A stretch of 64,000 nucleotides of DNA from Propionicicella superfundia DSM 22317. Its GTDB lineage: Bacteria; Actinomycetota; Actinomycetes; Propionibacteriales; Propionibacteriaceae. The translations under genes and the position numbers were made by a program. Under the pieces are notes generated by a model that worked only from the letters and a program-made list of their open reading frames with translations, made no database searches and was not told the origin of the DNA. Of this stretch, positions 4,019-52,124 are shown in pieces (within the stretch, counting starts at the first letter, position 1; each line of letters opens with the position of its first letter). The stretch spans positions 1 to 64,000 of the forward strand of contig NZ_AUIA01000020.1 of the NCBI RefSeq assembly GCF_000423465.1, written 5' to 3'.

Positions 4019-6130
<2,112 letters not shown>

Positions 6131-37639: not shown

Positions 37640-38236
37640 ATGCCCAAGCCCACGAAGGGGGCCCGCCTGGGCTCCAGCCCCGCCCATGAGCGGATCATCC
37701 TGGCGAATCTCGCGAGCCAGCTCTTCGAGCACGGCCGGATCACGACGACCCAGGCACGTGCCAAGCGTGTTCAGCCGCTCGCCGAGTCGCTGATCACGAA
37801 GGCGAAGAAGGGTGACCTGCACAACCGGCGGCTGGTGCTGCGCCGGCTCACCGACCCGGGCATCGTGCACGTCCTGTTCACGGAGATCGCGCCGTCCCTG
37901 GCCGATCGTGAGGGCGGTTACACCCGGATCACGAAGGTGGGCATGCGGCAGGGCGACAGCGCGCCGATGGCCGTCATCGAACTCGTCACTGAGTCCGTCG
38001 AGGAGTCGCGGGCCCGCAAGGAGAAGGCCGCGAAGCCGACGGCCAAGAAGGCCCCGGCCGCCGCCGCGGCAGAGACCGATGTCGTCGAGGCCGAGGAGGT
38101 CGTGGAGGCCGACGCGGTCGACACCGAGGACGCCGAGACACCCGACGAATCCGAGACCGTGGCGGAGGCCGACACCGACGCCGACGCCGAGGACGAGGTC
38201 GCCGACGAGGCCGAGGACACGACCGAGGCGAAGTAG
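37640..38236 (+). CDS. rplQ: 50S ribosomal protein L17 with long acidic tail
   Basis: A 198-aa protein. The first ~120 residues are normal L17 ([21 protein letters not shown]...). After an [15 protein letters not shown] linker, about 60 residues are almost exclusively Asp, Glu, Val, Ala and Thr. Acidic C-terminal extensions on L17 are known in actinobacteria, but this one is long. ATG at 37640 after CAGGAG; last gene of the unit before a strong terminator. truA, often next to rplQ, lies 9 kb away. Confidence 0.97.
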
Positions 38237-38404: not shown

Positions 38405-38576
38405 CTGACCGCCAGGTTGTGCGGCATACCGGCCCCGATGCCGGTATGCCGGAGAGGTGACCGCCGCCTTGTGAGGCATATGGCCTCGTGGACCCGCGCT
38501 CGTAACCCGTGCAAGGTGGCGGTCAGTCCGCGGCGGCGGCGCGGCCCAGGCCCGTATGCCGCACAAGGTGGCGGTC
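38405..38576. repeat. Four-copy interspersed palindromic element, locus A
   Basis: Core GACCGCCAGGTTGTGCGGCA or close variants occur four times: two forward copies (38405-38430, 38457-38483) and two inverted copies (38501-38526, 38551-38576). GACCGCC-to-GACCGCC spacing is 52 bp within each pair. The same layout recurs at 49330-49503. The rest of the rplQ-MFS spacer (38237-38680) holds the rplQ terminator and no gene. Confidence 0.85.
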
Positions 38577-38680
38577 TTCGACGACGGCAGGAAAACGGTT
38601 TGCCCGTGCCCCGGAACCGCGAGATGATCGACGGGTCTGGTCCACTCGGACCGTCCCCCGCCATGTCGAAGGGAAGCAGC

Positions 38681-39946
38681 ATGCGTGCGTCCGCCGCCAC
38701 CCGTGGCCTGCTCACGAGCCGGCCTTTCGTCACGCTGCTCGCCGCTCGCACGCTGTCGATGCTCGGGCTGTCGTTCTCGCCCGTCGCGCTCGCGTTCGGA
38801 GTCCTCGCCCTTCCCCACAGCGGGGCCGGCGAGCTCTCGATCGTCCTGGCGTCGCAGATGGTGCCCCTCGTCGCCTTCCTGCTCGTCGGCGGCGTCGTGG
38901 CCGACCGCTACCCGCGCTCGAGGGTGCTGCTCGCCGGTGCGCTGCTCAGCGCCCTCGCGTGGGGCACGATCGGGCTCATGTTCCTATCGGGATGGGCTCC
39001 CCTGTGGGCGCTGTGTACGGCGGCCGCCTTCGCGGGCCTCGCGGGCGCCCCCGTGTACCCGGCGCTCAACGGGATCATCCCCGACCTCGTCCCGGTCGAG
39101 CATCGTCAGCAGGGCAACGCGTGGCTGGCCATGGGAGCGTCGGGCGCCCGCCTCGCGGGGCTCGTCGCGGGCGGGGCGATGGTCGTGTGGCTGGGCGGGG
39201 GCTGGGCGATGATCGCCGCCGGAGGCATGTATCTCGGGGCGGCGATCCTCGTGAGCACGCTTCCGCGCGTGGCCGACACGCTGGCCGACAGCGAGACGAG
39301 CCCGCTGCGGCAGTTGATCGAGGGGTGGAGCGAGTTCTCGTCACGGCGCTGGCTGTGGGCGACCGTGGCGCAGTGGGCCGTGATGATCATGGTGCTCCAA
39401 GCGGCCAACGGGGTTCTCGGCCCGGTCATCGCGGAGACCGAGCTGGGCGGCGCGGGGGTCTGGACGACCGTGCTCGCCGCCGAGGCGCTCGGCGCGGTGG
39501 TGGGCGTCGCCCTGTCGATGGTCTGGCATCCTCGCCGGCCGATCCTGGCCGCGACGCTGCTGACGCTCAGCGCGGGCCTCCCGGCGCTGCTGCTCGGCGT
39601 GTCGGCACCTGTGTGGACGGTTGTGGCTGCGGCATTCGTCGCGGGCATCGGCTTCGACCTGTTCGGTGTCTGGTGGATGACGACGATGCAGGACGAGGTG
39701 CCGGCCGAGTCCCTGTCGCGCGTCGCATCCTATGACGCGCTCGGATCGCTCATGCTGGGGCCGGTCGGTCTCGCCCTCGCCGGGCCGGCCGCTGTGGTGT
39801 TCGGCGCCCACGCCTCGCTCGTCGGCGCCGGCCTCATCGCCCTCGCCGCGACAGTGTTCACCCTGAGCGTGCCCGAAGTCCGCACGCTGCGGGCGCGGCG
39901 GCACACCGTCGCCGATCCGGGCGACGTCCTGGTGCCGACGTCCTGA
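38681..39946 (+). CDS. MFS transporter
   Basis: A 421-aa membrane protein with about 12 hydrophobic helices. The MFS loop 2-3 motif appears as GGVVADRYPRSRVLLAG. A central cytoplasmic loop (SEFSSRRWLW) separates two six-helix bundles. It resembles the enterobactin-exporter/drug-efflux branch (NlpA-less), but no substrate can be assigned. ATG at 38681 is placed 5 bp after GAAGGGA; an ATG 18 bp upstream is an alternative. No neighbours share its direction. Confidence 0.85.
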   Translation: MRASAATRGLLTSRPFVTLLAARTLSMLGLSFSPVALAFGVLALPHSGAGELSIVLASQMVPLVAFLLVGGVVADRYPRSRVLLAGALLSALAWGTIGLMFLSGWAPLWALCTAAAFAGLAGAPVYPALNGIIPDLVPVEHRQQGNAWLAMGASGARLAGLVAGGAMVVWLGGGWAMIAAGGMYLGAAILVSTLPRVADTLADSETSPLRQLIEGWSEFSSRRWLWATVAQWAVMIMVLQAANGVLGPVIAETELGGAGVWTTVLAAEALGAVVGVALSMVWHPRRPILAATLLTLSAGLPALLLGVSAPVWTVVAAAFVAGIGFDLFGVWWMTTMQDEVPAESLSRVASYDALGSLMLGPVGLALAGPAAVVFGAHASLVGAGLIALAATVFTLSVPEVRTLRARRHTVADPGDVLVPTS

Positions 39947-48889: not shown

Positions 48890-49303
48890 ATGCGCACACT
48901 GCTCAACATCATCTGGCTCGTCACCGGCGGGATCTGGCTCGCGCTGGGTTATGTCCTGTTCGGGATCGTCGCGTGCGTCTTCATCGTGACGATCCCGGCG
49001 GGTGTCGCGTCGTTCCGGATGGCCCGCTACGCCTTCTGGCCGTTCGGTCGGGCGGTCGTCGAGCGCCCGGGAGGCTCAGGGGTGATGTCCGGCGTGTCGA
49101 ACGTCGTCTGGTTCCTCGTCGCCGGGCTGTGGCTGGCCGTCGGCCACGTCTCGACCGCCGCGGCGCAGTTCGTCACCATCGTCGGCATCCCGCTGGCCAT
49201 CGCCAACCTGAAAATGATCCCCGTCACCTGCTTCCCGTTCGGCAAGCAGATCGTCGATTCGGATCAGTTGCCGCCCGGAGTGCGGCCCCTGCACTCGCTG
49301 TGA
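48890..49303 (+). CDS. YccF-family membrane protein
   Basis: A 137-aa protein with two copies of the YccF pattern: LLNIIWLVTGGIWLALGYVLFGIV...IPAGVASFRMARYAFWPFGR and NVVWFLVAGLWLAVGH...VGIPLAIANLKMIPVTCFPFGKQIV. About four membrane helices. Function unknown in the family. ATG at 48890 after GCGGAGG. It is transcribed divergently from trmB. Confidence 0.9.
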   Translation: MRTLLNIIWLVTGGIWLALGYVLFGIVACVFIVTIPAGVASFRMARYAFWPFGRAVVERPGGSGVMSGVSNVVWFLVAGLWLAVGHVSTAAAQFVTIVGIPLAIANLKMIPVTCFPFGKQIVDSDQLPPGVRPLHSL

Positions 49304-49329: not shown

Positions 49330-49503
49330 CTGACCGCCAGGTTGTGCGGCATATCGGGCCGGTTGCCGGGCTGGAGCGGGCTGACCGCCAGGTTGCATGG
49401 CTTATGCGGCTCGAATTCGACGTCGTATGCCTCGCAAGGTGGCGGTCACCTCTCGCGGGCCGCGGCATCGGGGTCTGTATGCCCCACAACCTGGCGGTCA
49501 GTG
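49330..49503. repeat. Four-copy interspersed palindromic element, locus B
   Basis: Second occurrence of the element at 38405-38576: forward copies at 49330-49357 and 49381-49409, inverted copies at 49424-49448 and 49473-49503. Forward spacing is 51 bp and inverted spacing 52 bp. Inner inverted pair spans 65 bp and outer pair 168 bp, against 66 and 170 bp at locus A. Confidence 0.85.
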
Positions 49504-49531
49504 CCCGGGGCGCGACCGGACGCCACCCGCG

Positions 49532-49738
49532 CCGAGGTGGGCGTGTGGTCTTGTGGTTCGGGCGGATGGTGTCGGGGAGCGTGGTTGGGGCTGGCCCGCG
49601 CCGAGGTGGGCGTGTGGTCTTGTGGTTCGGGCGGATGGTGTCGGGGAGCGTGGTTGGGGCTGGCCCGCGCCGAGGTGGGCGTGTGGTCTTGTGGTTCGGG
49701 CGGATGGTGCCGTGAGCGTGGATGGGGCTGGCCCCCGC
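49532..49738. repeat. 69-bp tandem array, three units
   Basis: Units begin CCGAGGTGGGCGTGTGG at 49532, 49601 and 49670, and a degenerate fourth begins near 49738. Units are almost identical. Each contains GGTCTTGTGGTTCGG, whose complement occurs in the neighbouring 35-bp array. Confidence 0.9.
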
Positions 49739-49777
49739 CGAGCTTGCGAGGCGGGTGGTTGCGAACGGCACCATCCC

Positions 49778-49990
49778 CCGAACCACAAGACCGAGCCGAG
49801 CGCAGCGCATGTCCGAACCACAAGACCGAGCCGAGCGCAGCGCATGTCCGGACCACAAGACCGAGCCGAGCGCAGCGCATGTCCGGACCACGGGGTCGAA
49901 CCGAGCGCAGCGCATGTCCCGAACCACAAGACCGAGCCGAGCGCAGCACACGTCCCGGACCACGGGGTCGAGCCGACCGCAGCACACGTC
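49778..49990. repeat. 35/36-bp tandem array, six units
   Basis: Units start CCG(A/G)ACCACAAGACCGAG or CCGGACCACGGGGTCGA at 49778, 49813, 49848, 49883, 49919 and 49955 and share GAGCGCAGC(G/A)CA(T/C)GTCC. The period is not a multiple of three, so no reading frame is kept. Together with locus B and the 69-bp array this fills the gene-free stretch 49304-50069. Confidence 0.9.
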
Positions 49991-50069
49991 CCGACACGGG
50001 ACCGACCCGATCCCCCGGATCGACACGACAGAGCCGGGCGGTCCGAGGGACGTCACCGGGCCGGACGCA

Positions 50070-52124
50070 TCACTGCTTCAGGTATGCCTCCGCCAGGTTG
50101 GACGGCAGCAGCTCGTAGCCGTGGAACTCGCGGGTGAACTTGCCCGTGCCGCGGGCCAGCCCCCGCAGGTCGATCGCATAGCGGGTGAGCTCGGCCTGCG
50201 GCACCAGCGCGGTGATGATCGCCTGGTGCGAGGTGTTCGAATCGGTTCCCAGAAGCTGACCGCGCCGGTTGGACAGGTCGGTCATCACCGCTCCCATGTA
50301 CTCCTCGCCGACCGTCACGGTCACGAGGTCGAGCGGCTCCAGCAGCGCGGCCGTCTTCCCCGGCACGGCCGCCTCCTTCATCGCCAGCGAGCCGGCGAGC
50401 TGGAACGCCATGTCGGACGAGTCCACCGAGTGGGCCTTCCCGTCGAACAGGGTGACCCGGACGTCCACCATCGGGTATCCGGCGATGACGCCCTTCTCCA
50501 ACTGGGTGCGGACGCCCTTCTCGACGCTCGGGATGAACTGGCGGGGGACCGCACCGCCGACGACCTTGTCCACGAACTCGAAGCCTGCGCCCCGCTCCAG
50601 CGGCTCGACCTCGATGTCGCACACGGCGTACTGGCCGTGCCCGCCGGACTGCTTCACATGGCGTCCCTTGGCGGTCGCCTTGGCGATCATCGTCTCTCGT
50701 AGCGGAATGCGCAGGGGCTCCTGCTCGACGCTGACGCCGTAGCGCTGCGTGAGCCGGTTCAGCAGCAGGTCGGCGTGTGCCTGACCGGCGGTCCACAACA
50801 CGATCTGCTCACCGCTGGAGCGGTCGACCCGGACGGCGGAATCCTCCAGCGACAGCCGCTGCAGGGCGGCGGGGAGCTTGTCCTCGTCGTTGCGGGTCAC
50901 GGCCTTGATCGCGATCGGCAGGAGCGGCTCGGGCAGCGTCCACGGCTCGACGGTGACGTAGTTGTCGATCGCCGACAAGGTGTCGCCGGTCTCGGCCTTC
51001 GACAGTTTCGGCAGCATCACGATCTCACCCGCGATGGCGGACGTGCGCGACTTCAGCTCCGTGCCCACGGCGATGCTGAGCTGCCCGATGCGCTCCTCGG
51101 CGGCGGTGGTCATGTTCGAGAGCCGGACGGTCGAGTCGGCGTGCAGCGTCCCGCTGAACACGCGGACCATCGAGAGCCGCCCGGCGAACGGGTCGGTCGT
51201 CGTCCGGATGACCTGGGCCACCAGCGGGGCGTCGGGAGCGGCCGGTGCAGGGCCGAGGCTCTCGCCCTGCGGGTTGAGCAGGTCGGGATTGGGGTGCAGC
51301 GACGGTGTGGGGAAGCCCTTCTCGATGAGGGAGATCAGTTCGTCGATCCCGACGCCGTTGTGCGCCTGGACGGGGACGACCGGGTAGAGGTTCGCCGAGG
51401 CGACCGCGCGGCACATGTCGGCATACAGCGAGGCGCCGTCGATCTCGTCCCCGGCGAGGTAGCGGTCCATCATCGCGTCGTCCTCGGACTCCTGGATGAT
51501 GCCCTCGATCAGCGGAGGACGCAGCTCGTCGAGGACCTCGGCGTGCTCGGCGCCGGACGGCCCGTCCACACGGGAGCCGCCGGCGTAGTCGTGGAGGTTC
51601 GTCGAGACGAGGCTGAGCACCTGCAGAATCCGCCCATCGTCGTCCACGTACGGGTAGTGGCTGGCCTGCACGCCCGCGCCGAAGACCTGCTGGCAGTTGT
51701 CGAGGGCGGTGATGAAGTCGGTCCGTCCGGCGTCGAGCTTCGTGAGGGCGATCGCGCGCGGCAGGTTCGCCTCGGTGGCCTCCTGCCACAGGCTTGCTGT
51801 CGCGGCGTCCACGCCGTCGGCCGCCGACACGACGAACACCGCGGCGTCGGCGGCGCGCATGCCCGCCCGCAGCTCGCCGACGAAGTCGGGGTGCCCCGGC
51901 GCGTCGAGGACGTTCACCCAGGCGGGACCGGCCGTGAAGGACGTCAGGAACAGGGCCGCGGCGCGCTCGGGGCTTTCCTTCTCACCGCGATAGCCGGGCA
52001 CGCGAGATTTCAGGAGCTGTTCGAGGAGCGTGGTCTTGCCGGATCCGGCCGCCCCCACGAGGACCACGTTCCGCAGCTGGTCTGCCGACGTCACCTGTGT
52101 GCTTTCGTTCACCTTTGAACTCAT
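50070..52124 (-). CDS. fusA2: Elongation factor G-like protein (EF-G2)
   Basis: A 684-aa translational-GTPase paralogue with all EF-G domains: VLVGAAGSGKTTLLEQLL (G1), DAPGHPDFVGEL (G3), LTKLDAGRTDF in place of NKxD (G4), and a domain IV with GGHGQYAVCDIEVEPL. The altered G4 and weak switch region match the actinobacterial FusA2 type (e.g. M. tuberculosis Rv0120c), whose role is unclear. The 150-bp gap to araM is a divergent promoter region. The GTPase may not bind GTP like fusA (4019-6130). Confidence 0.93.
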   Translation of the reverse strand: MSSKVNESTQVTSADQLRNVVLVGAAGSGKTTLLEQLLKSRVPGYRGEKESPERAAALFLTSFTAGPAWVNVLDAPGHPDFVGELRAGMRAADAAVFVVSAADGVDAATASLWQEATEANLPRAIALTKLDAGRTDFITALDNCQQVFGAGVQASHYPYVDDDGRILQVLSLVSTNLHDYAGGSRVDGPSGAEHAEVLDELRPPLIEGIIQESEDDAMMDRYLAGDEIDGASLYADMCRAVASANLYPVVPVQAHNGVGIDELISLIEKGFPTPSLHPNPDLLNPQGESLGPAPAAPDAPLVAQVIRTTTDPFAGRLSMVRVFSGTLHADSTVRLSNMTTAAEERIGQLSIAVGTELKSRTSAIAGEIVMLPKLSKAETGDTLSAIDNYVTVEPWTLPEPLLPIAIKAVTRNDEDKLPAALQRLSLEDSAVRVDRSSGEQIVLWTAGQAHADLLLNRLTQRYGVSVEQEPLRIPLRETMIAKATAKGRHVKQSGGHGQYAVCDIEVEPLERGAGFEFVDKVVGGAVPRQFIPSVEKGVRTQLEKGVIAGYPMVDVRVTLFDGKAHSVDSSDMAFQLAGSLAMKEAAVPGKTAALLEPLDLVTVTVGEEYMGAVMTDLSNRRGQLLGTDSNTSHQAIITALVPQAELTRYAIDLRGLARGTGKFTREFHGYELLPSNLAEAYLKQ

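Follow-up and report, generated by a model that had tools for sequence, protein, structure and literature searches.

A REP unit forms a conserved hairpin that bears a tetranucleotide foot, and MITEs and repeats of the ERIC and Correia type are short palindromic elements dispersed between genes. In the RAYT/REP systems, as two accounts describe them, a nuclease gene is linked to the repeat, several gene-repeat families occur in one genome, and repeat and enzyme diverge together (PMC2817692, PMC3116915). A different kind of repeated site is bound by the AbiEi antitoxins. One report describes two such proteins. The S. agalactiae AbiEi occupies a pair of 23-bp inverted repeats separated by 3 bp, whereas Rv2827c of M. 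tuberculosis occupies four 23-bp repeats simultaneously, the members of a pair being 13 bp apart; its authors propose that these additional 10 bp give room for a larger C-terminal domain (PMC7319586).

The window, by which is meant the whole 64,000-nucleotide stretch of DNA that was analysed, contains two loci, A and B, at which a preliminary description had recognised two direct and two inverted copies of a core at near-fixed spacing. Mapping of the 23-bp core, TGACCGCCnnnTTGnnnGGCATA, confirmed this forward-forward-reverse-reverse (FFRR) order at both loci: with up to 3 mismatches allowed, and with the pattern used without its first T, there were 8 matches in the window, four per locus, whereas 100 shuffled windows averaged 0.59 and never exceeded 3. 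The features are as follows.

37640 to 38236: ribosomal protein L17 gene, neighbour of locus A
38406 to 38577, minus strand: FFRR element of locus A, a reverse-oriented copy, four-core layout at core-pattern matches
38406 to 38428, plus strand: locus A core 1, outer, core-pattern match
38458 to 38480, plus strand: locus A core 2, inner, core-pattern match
38481 to 38502, no strand: locus A dyad centre, 22 bp between the inner cores
38503 to 38525, minus strand: locus A core 3, inner, ending in GGGTTA, the form common to other genera
38555 to 38577, minus strand: locus A core 4, outer, core-pattern match
38663 to 39946: MFS transporter gene, neighbour of locus A
48890 to 49303: YccF-domain gene, neighbour of locus B
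49331 to 49500, plus strand: FFRR element of locus B, four-core layout at core-pattern matches
49331 to 49353, plus strand: locus B core 1, outer, core-pattern match
49382 to 49404, plus strand: locus B core 2, inner, core-pattern match
49405 to 49425, no strand: locus B dyad centre, 21 bp between the inner cores
49426 to 49448, minus strand: locus B core 3, inner, core-pattern match
49478 to 49500, minus strand: locus B core 4, outer, core-pattern match
50070 to 52112: convergent elongation-factor-G-like gene, neighbour of locus B

The layout stands as first described, but the spans then given, 66 and 170 bp for locus A and 65 and 168 bp for locus B, become 68 and 172 bp and 67 and 170 bp respectively with a 23-bp core. 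The flank of locus B also holds tandem arrays at 49526-49742 (3.2 copies of 69 bp) and 49778-49991 (6.1 copies of 35 bp), the units of which have in common an inverted segment, GGTCTTGTGGTTCGG / CCGAACCACAAGACC.

Loci A and B are copies of a family dispersed throughout the genome. The search for the core, its orientation and its spacing that had been proposed at the outset covered the whole genome (3.62 Mb in 23 contigs) and, with no more than 2 mismatches allowed, yielded 111 cores where the reversed pattern gave none, and 33 complete FFRR elements, each with four 23-bp cores starting at offsets of 0, +51/52, +95/97 and +147/149. It had been envisaged that copies elsewhere might lack the four-part layout or the 51-52 bp spacing, the two loci then agreeing by chance; layout and spacing are instead found together in 33 complete elements. 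A sequence model run on the same genome (E < 0.001) recovered all 33, together with three further places that are partial or weak (C6:158151, C7:3660 and C8:23041) and a match at C4:58086 that overlaps a known element; among the cores listed (100 of the 111), those outside complete elements fall at three degenerate places. The elements are about 171 bp long and oriented, and in most of them the two inner cores end differently, one in GGCATA and its counterpart in GGGTTA or something close to it. Mean pairwise identity amongst the 33 falls from 84% in the cores to 50% across the three spacers and to 33% in the flanks, so that the cores, which had been called identical, are similar only. Movement of the element has not been recent, since no two copies are more than 82% alike in their spacers. 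Despite this drift each spacer varies in length by one base only, and the suggestion that the geometry is under selection is borne out by the retention of cores and spacing in 33 elements while the spacers diverged.

All 33 elements are intergenic with respect to the called genes, overlaps with which reach 22 bp (at L014); the gene calls came from a simple codon-score script, and some starts may be off. Both neighbours were called for 32 elements, and 16 of these lie between convergent genes; of all adjacent gene pairs at these loci, 44 of 262 are convergent. A scan for target-site duplications (33 elements, lengths 2-9, shifts -4 to +4) gave no consistent excess of flank matches over shuffles, the largest z being 2.7 among 72 tests. 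Genes beside the elements had no common function, with the top Pfam family accounting for 4 of 127, and, judged by eye, element orientation with respect to replication had no consistent link to local GC skew. The chromosomal distribution looks uneven, the 1.02-Mb contig C1 carrying only one of the 33 elements and the dnaA contig, C5, none.

Outside this genome the strict core was not found, four other genomes having at most one single-core match each, and the strict two-core pattern occurred in none of the stretches of the genome contig and viral contig collections. The sequence model nevertheless matched other genera of the Propionibacteriaceae, in which the same architecture is built from different cores. 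In a scan for geometry alone the elements of these relatives score 94-118, compared with up to 75 per 100 kb of simulated sequence. Counted from the common GTTnnnnGGGTTAT part, the geometry (51, 19, 51) is exact in 27 of 34 relatives' elements, and the centre is 19 bp in 32 of them, the exceptions being one of 18 bp and one of 29 bp. The latter, at L072:8763-8933, is exactly 10 bp longer, or about one helical turn. A loose motif pair was present in 15 of 198 Propionibacteriaceae genomes, the reversed control giving five single matches, and 23 of the 30 loci so found hold a complete FFRR element (three are copies from the own genome and two elements appear twice); six of the other seven are single matches in otherwise match-less genomes and look like chance, and the seventh, L083, looks like a decayed copy. 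With a looser pattern, 27 stretches were recovered from genome contigs, 13 of them with FFRR elements and all of these from Propionibacteriaceae or actinobacterial MAGs; a stretch from an Elusimicrobia MAG (L148) scores 99 on what appears to be a GGGTTA-rich repetitive run. The same pattern gave a single stretch in viral contigs, without an FFRR element. Several core families coexist in one genome, notably in G311 and G006. Between the genes of a UPRTase-APH pair, G006 has an FFRR element and two congeners have a different palindrome, and because the congeners differ from G006 at this gap it appears that FFRR sites come and go. No clean empty allele was obtained for the gap among the congeners compared, of which three lacked a UPRTase match in the flank retrieved and one lacked an APH match.

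A second palindromic class, of about 70-75 bp, was observed in genus g7 (L170:1383-1452, L171:1382-1451 and other loci, L172-L200). It consists of a core, CCATTSASTGGCAGATA, in forward orientation and again in reverse at +53 (found in 18 of 20), with a conserved centre. At up to 2 mismatches the core was counted 24 times in each of G279 and G313, 22 times in each of G312 and G311 and 7 times in G314, with one match in G006 and none in the own genome or G315.

When the neighbours of the elements were compared across genomes, one protein family was found to adjoin elements directly in 4 genomes from 3 genera, other shared neighbour families lying farther from the element on at least one side. 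The member of this family in the own genome (L020:4131-5114, minus strand) lies between two FFRR elements on contig C3, a different contig from that of the window. These two elements (L020:3963-4133 and 5220-5390) have nearly identical inner halves and differing outer spacers, hinting at homogenisation or duplication. The protein has about 320 residues (327 in the own copy) and its genes are plain open frames. In the own copy, Pfam models for the AbiEi N-terminal domain and for the DUF559/MTES_1575 nucleases match weakly, below their curated cut-offs, and the AbiEi profiles of PADLOC match all 33 strong homologues. An AlphaFold2 model (pLDDT 94.4, pTM 0.90) suggests a fusion of two folds. The first part, residues 3-214, resembles 6y8q, an AbiEi antitoxin (Foldseek E 6.8e-7; VIA-align Z 11.5, rmsd 5.0, 180 aligned), and the fold of the middle part rests mainly on that structure, because most VIA-align rows cover residues 2-51 and 157-319. 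Residues 218-319 match I-Bth0305I (3r3p; VIA-align Z 13.0, rmsd 2.5, 93 aligned) and 3hrl (Z 12.6), and this nuclease part also aligns with Vsr (1cw0; Z 10.7, rmsd 2.0, 97 aligned). Of the two folds the AbiEi match alone is significant in Foldseek, where I-Bth0305I has E 0.17 and 3hrl E 0.69; a sequence profile finds 3hrl at E 1.7e-5. The C-terminal part is thus predicted to be a Vsr/homing-endonuclease-like PD-(D/E)XK domain. Among the residues invariant in 33 of 33 homologues are E218, E222, D253, E264, D266 and K270, and on the strength of the model the acidic and lysine residues are putatively catalytic.

Of 394 Actinomycetes genomes sampled, 179 encode a homologue (E 1e-15 or better). The protein had no match in a phage collection and one in a plasmid collection. 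In Tsukamurella (L265:4753-4950, on NZ_LR134451.1) repeated CGCTGCCG/CGGCAGCG motifs come after a homologue to which NCBI gives the name AbiEi-family antitoxin-domain protein; NZ_LR134451.1 is called plasmid 9, yet it has chromosome-like genes (tatB, an Mrp-type ATPase, dTMP kinase and mtrA).

The pairing of gene and element was assessed by searching nine genomes with the protein family and examining all 33 matches of at least 330 bits. An FFRR element with a score of at least 83 adjoins 31 of these 33 strong homologues, 30 of the 31 scoring at least 87, compared with a highest score of 79 when the same scan was made on 240 kb of simulated sequence; the element at L242:2971, at 83, is close to that maximum. 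For 30 homologues the element scored at least 83 within 300 bp of the gene, and for the 31st a clear one (score 105) was found at the stop codon on rescan. The 32nd (L241) has a borderline element, whose score of 80 is within reach of chance, and at the 33rd a single arm is visible beside an assembly gap (Ns). The best element lies 3' of the gene in 25 of 30 cases, and in 21 of these 25 the edge of the core is no more than 6 bp from the stop codon; elements lie on the 5' side only in three of the thirty and on both sides in two, and at one of the 5'-only homologues (L255) only about 100 bases of contig remain beyond the match. An element lies within 60 bp of the 3' end of 26 of 34 homologues, compared with 16 of 186 other genes in the same loci, and all 16 are neighbours across the same gap that share the homologue's own element. 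Four weaker homologues that were examined had no FFRR element. The fixed FFRR layout is likewise not general at distant homologues in other families, where inverted repeats are strongly enriched relative to random windows and to genes of Propionibacteriaceae loci, but not significantly so (p=0.12, n=31) when the control is the sequence downstream of other genes at the loci of these distant homologues. One such distant homologue (L293, in G377) is flanked on both sides by 75-bp FFRR elements with 20-bp spacing (about 1240-1330 and 2395-2480), in which the order of cores is the same and the geometry another.

Each gene-linked element has its own core, and dispersed elements carry the cores of genes in the same genome. 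In five genomes, 27 of 30 dispersed elements matched best a gene-linked core of the same genome where 5.2 were expected. Copies were sought for a minority of the gene-linked cores, with none of those from G279 and G008, nor the second core of the own genome, among them. That genome has two strong homologues, of which the one at C3:386857 has the amplified element and the one at C3:436084 adjoins a different core. Amongst 30 protein-core pairs, divergence of the core tracks the DNA-binding domain rather than the nuclease, on p values uncorrected over the 12 Mantel tests made. Distances for the DNA-binding domain were correlated with those for the core (r=0.27, p=0.014, uncorrected, 12 tests) and for its 3' half (r=0.33, p=0.0035, likewise uncorrected), and not significantly with those for its 5' half (r=0.09, p=0.17); in the same 30 pairs the core showed no correlation with the nuclease (r=-0.04, p=0.59), and with the protein taken as a whole its correlation fell short of significance (r=0.14, p=0.11).

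The explanation favoured here, to which a probability of roughly three in four is given, is that the FFRR element is the cognate four-site target of the AbiEi-like/Vsr-like fusion nuclease, and that its dispersed copies are kept, and probably spread, through this protein. The gene and the element are paired, the families are core-specific and the geometry is conserved; a partnership between gene and element is very likely, direct binding of the predicted nuclease to the element is likely, and the chances that the nuclease drives its dispersal are about even. The conserved cores, drifted spacers and absence of co-variation are those of protein-binding sites on duplex DNA and not of a folded strand. 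Of the possibilities first raised, paired protein binding about five helical turns apart would fit the sequences best. As the core is 23 bp long, the order is inverted and the fold matches AbiEi, one protomer per core is the simplest reading, and from the predicted structure and the co-divergence each core would be read by one protein molecule through its winged helix. With spacings of 51-52 and 19-21 bp, and with the +10 exception, all four sites would look out from roughly the same side of the helix, so that four molecules may assemble on that face, neighbouring sites being about five turns from each other and the centre measuring two turns. Such an assembly could bring the nuclease domains to where they would nick or cut the element or the DNA next to it, after which repair or copying might put the element into new intergenic places; both steps are suggested by the parallel with RAYT/REPIN and by the gain or loss at the UPRTase-APH gap.

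The alternative that survives best, which is unlikely, is that the elements are fixed chromosomal or regulatory sites, such as chromosome-organising or transcription-roadblock platforms, to which the AbiEi-like protein binds, the nuclease serving repair or surveillance and the elements being immobile. The retention of cores and spacing amid drifting spacers would be expected of such sites, as would their exclusively intergenic positions and the frequency of convergent flanking genes, the lack of recent copies or target-site duplications, and the single element on contig C1. Immobile sites do not account for an FFRR element in G006 where two congeners have a different palindrome between the same two genes, nor for the coexistence of several core families within one genome, nor for the cores common to gene-linked and dispersed copies. 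If the protein does not move the element, the result would be a chromosome-wide network of binding sites for a predicted nuclease.

It is improbable that the elements are MITEs mobilised by an undetected transposase of the ordinary kind, with the AbiEi-nuclease gene as a frequent passenger only. Terminal inverted repeats, dispersal and intergenic placement are in keeping with that origin, and in G342 a likeness among the spacers, extending to a few bases of the flanks, is visible by eye. The 33 elements lack a target-site duplication signal, however, and separated ends (two cores, the gene, two cores) were not seen in 30 loci with about 1.5 kb on each side; a passenger would also not be expected to have its own element with its own core at 31 of 33 strong homologues, nor a DNA-binding domain that the divergence of the core follows. 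A type IV toxin-antitoxin or anti-phage module, in which the protein would act as an AbiEi antitoxin with the elements for operators, is quite improbable too. The AbiEi fold (6y8q), the PADLOC matches and the NCBI name of the distant homologue all point towards it, but no constant toxin partner (DUF1814) is seen, since among the first 25 families listed the top one accounts for 4 of 60 immediate neighbours; the element lies mostly 3' of the gene and not at its promoter, and the protein has a predicted nuclease domain fused to it with acidic and lysine residues invariant in all 33 homologues. That the element, an imperfect palindrome of about 170 bp, is a structured RNA or an extruded DNA cruciform, as was first thought possible, is very improbable indeed, for partner cores do not co-vary (RNAalifold covariation term +0.16; 3 of 22 pairs with any double change) and pair within elements no better than in shuffled ones (outer p 0.87, inner p 0.33), the window has no Rfam match at gathering thresholds, and folding predicts neither the same core repeated within each arm nor a centre variant of +10 bp.

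It may well be the case that these proteins form a new class of repeat-associated nuclease, in which AbiEi-Vsr fusions read four phased 23-bp sites and propagate them independently of RAYT/REPIN; the odds of this are evenly balanced, and if true it would give a role to a family that almost one in two of the sampled Actinomycetes genomes encodes. These proteins, widespread and of unassigned role, are in any event now linked to a specific DNA element, each protein with its own core. No account of the pairing was found in the PMC open-access literature, where no report combines DUF559 and AbiEi. Since the geometry is constant and specificity varies by paralogue, the approximately thirty natural protein-site pairs could be used to read out AbiEi-type DNA recognition.

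Amongst known systems, MITEs and the ERIC and Correia repeats resemble the FFRR element in being short, palindromic, dispersed and intergenic; unlike them, it has no target-site duplication, no transposase with the same ends was seen, and it has four strictly spaced cores. The Vsr-like homing endonuclease I-Bth0305I shares the nuclease fold of residues 218-319, but in the present protein DNA would be recognised by a predicted AbiEi-type domain and the targets persist as dispersed four-site elements. With the operators of AbiEi, as the relevant parts of the report present them, the element shares 23-bp inverted sites and a predicted binding protein of the same fold, and with Rv2827c also the number of four sites; the within-pair spacings of AbiEi and Rv2827c (3 and 13 bp) differ by 10 bp, as do the usual and the longer FFRR centre, whereas the operators described there are few and lie in the protein's own promoter (PMC7319586). 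FFRR sites differ from them further in being dispersed, in their order, in the predicted nuclease domain of the protein and in having no constant toxin partner seen.

The preliminary description had named REP/BIME elements as the closest feature type, and in organisation this holds, the nearest known analogue being the RAYT/REPIN system, but it fails for the enzyme. The REP-type (TnpA-REP/Y1) transposase that was to be looked for is missing, PF01797 being absent from the own genome and also from G006, G311, G142 and G315; of 16 genomes searched it was found in 5, all of genus g9, and three of these bear elements (G342, G346 and G336). Membership of RAYT/REPIN was rejected, the defining Y1 enzyme being absent from the own genome and four element-bearing relatives. 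In both systems dispersed intergenic inverted repeats are linked to an enzyme gene (here of a predicted nuclease), several gene-repeat families, each with its own repeat, occur in one genome, and repeat and enzyme co-diverge; the enzyme gene is adjoined by its own repeats, clearly so here in 31 of 33 cases and mostly on one side (3') only. Three things set the FFRR system apart from RAYT/REPIN: in most cases the element follows the 3' end of the gene, the genome has no Y1/HUH enzyme and the enzyme is instead an AbiEi-Vsr-like fusion, and the repeat would present four sites of duplex type at a fixed 51-bp spacing instead of hairpins; mini-palindromes were seen by eye in some FFRR cores, and the middle positions vary within core families. 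If the protein does move the element, it would represent a second and independent solution to the task performed by RAYT/REPIN, in which a homing-type nuclease is combined with recognition of duplex DNA.
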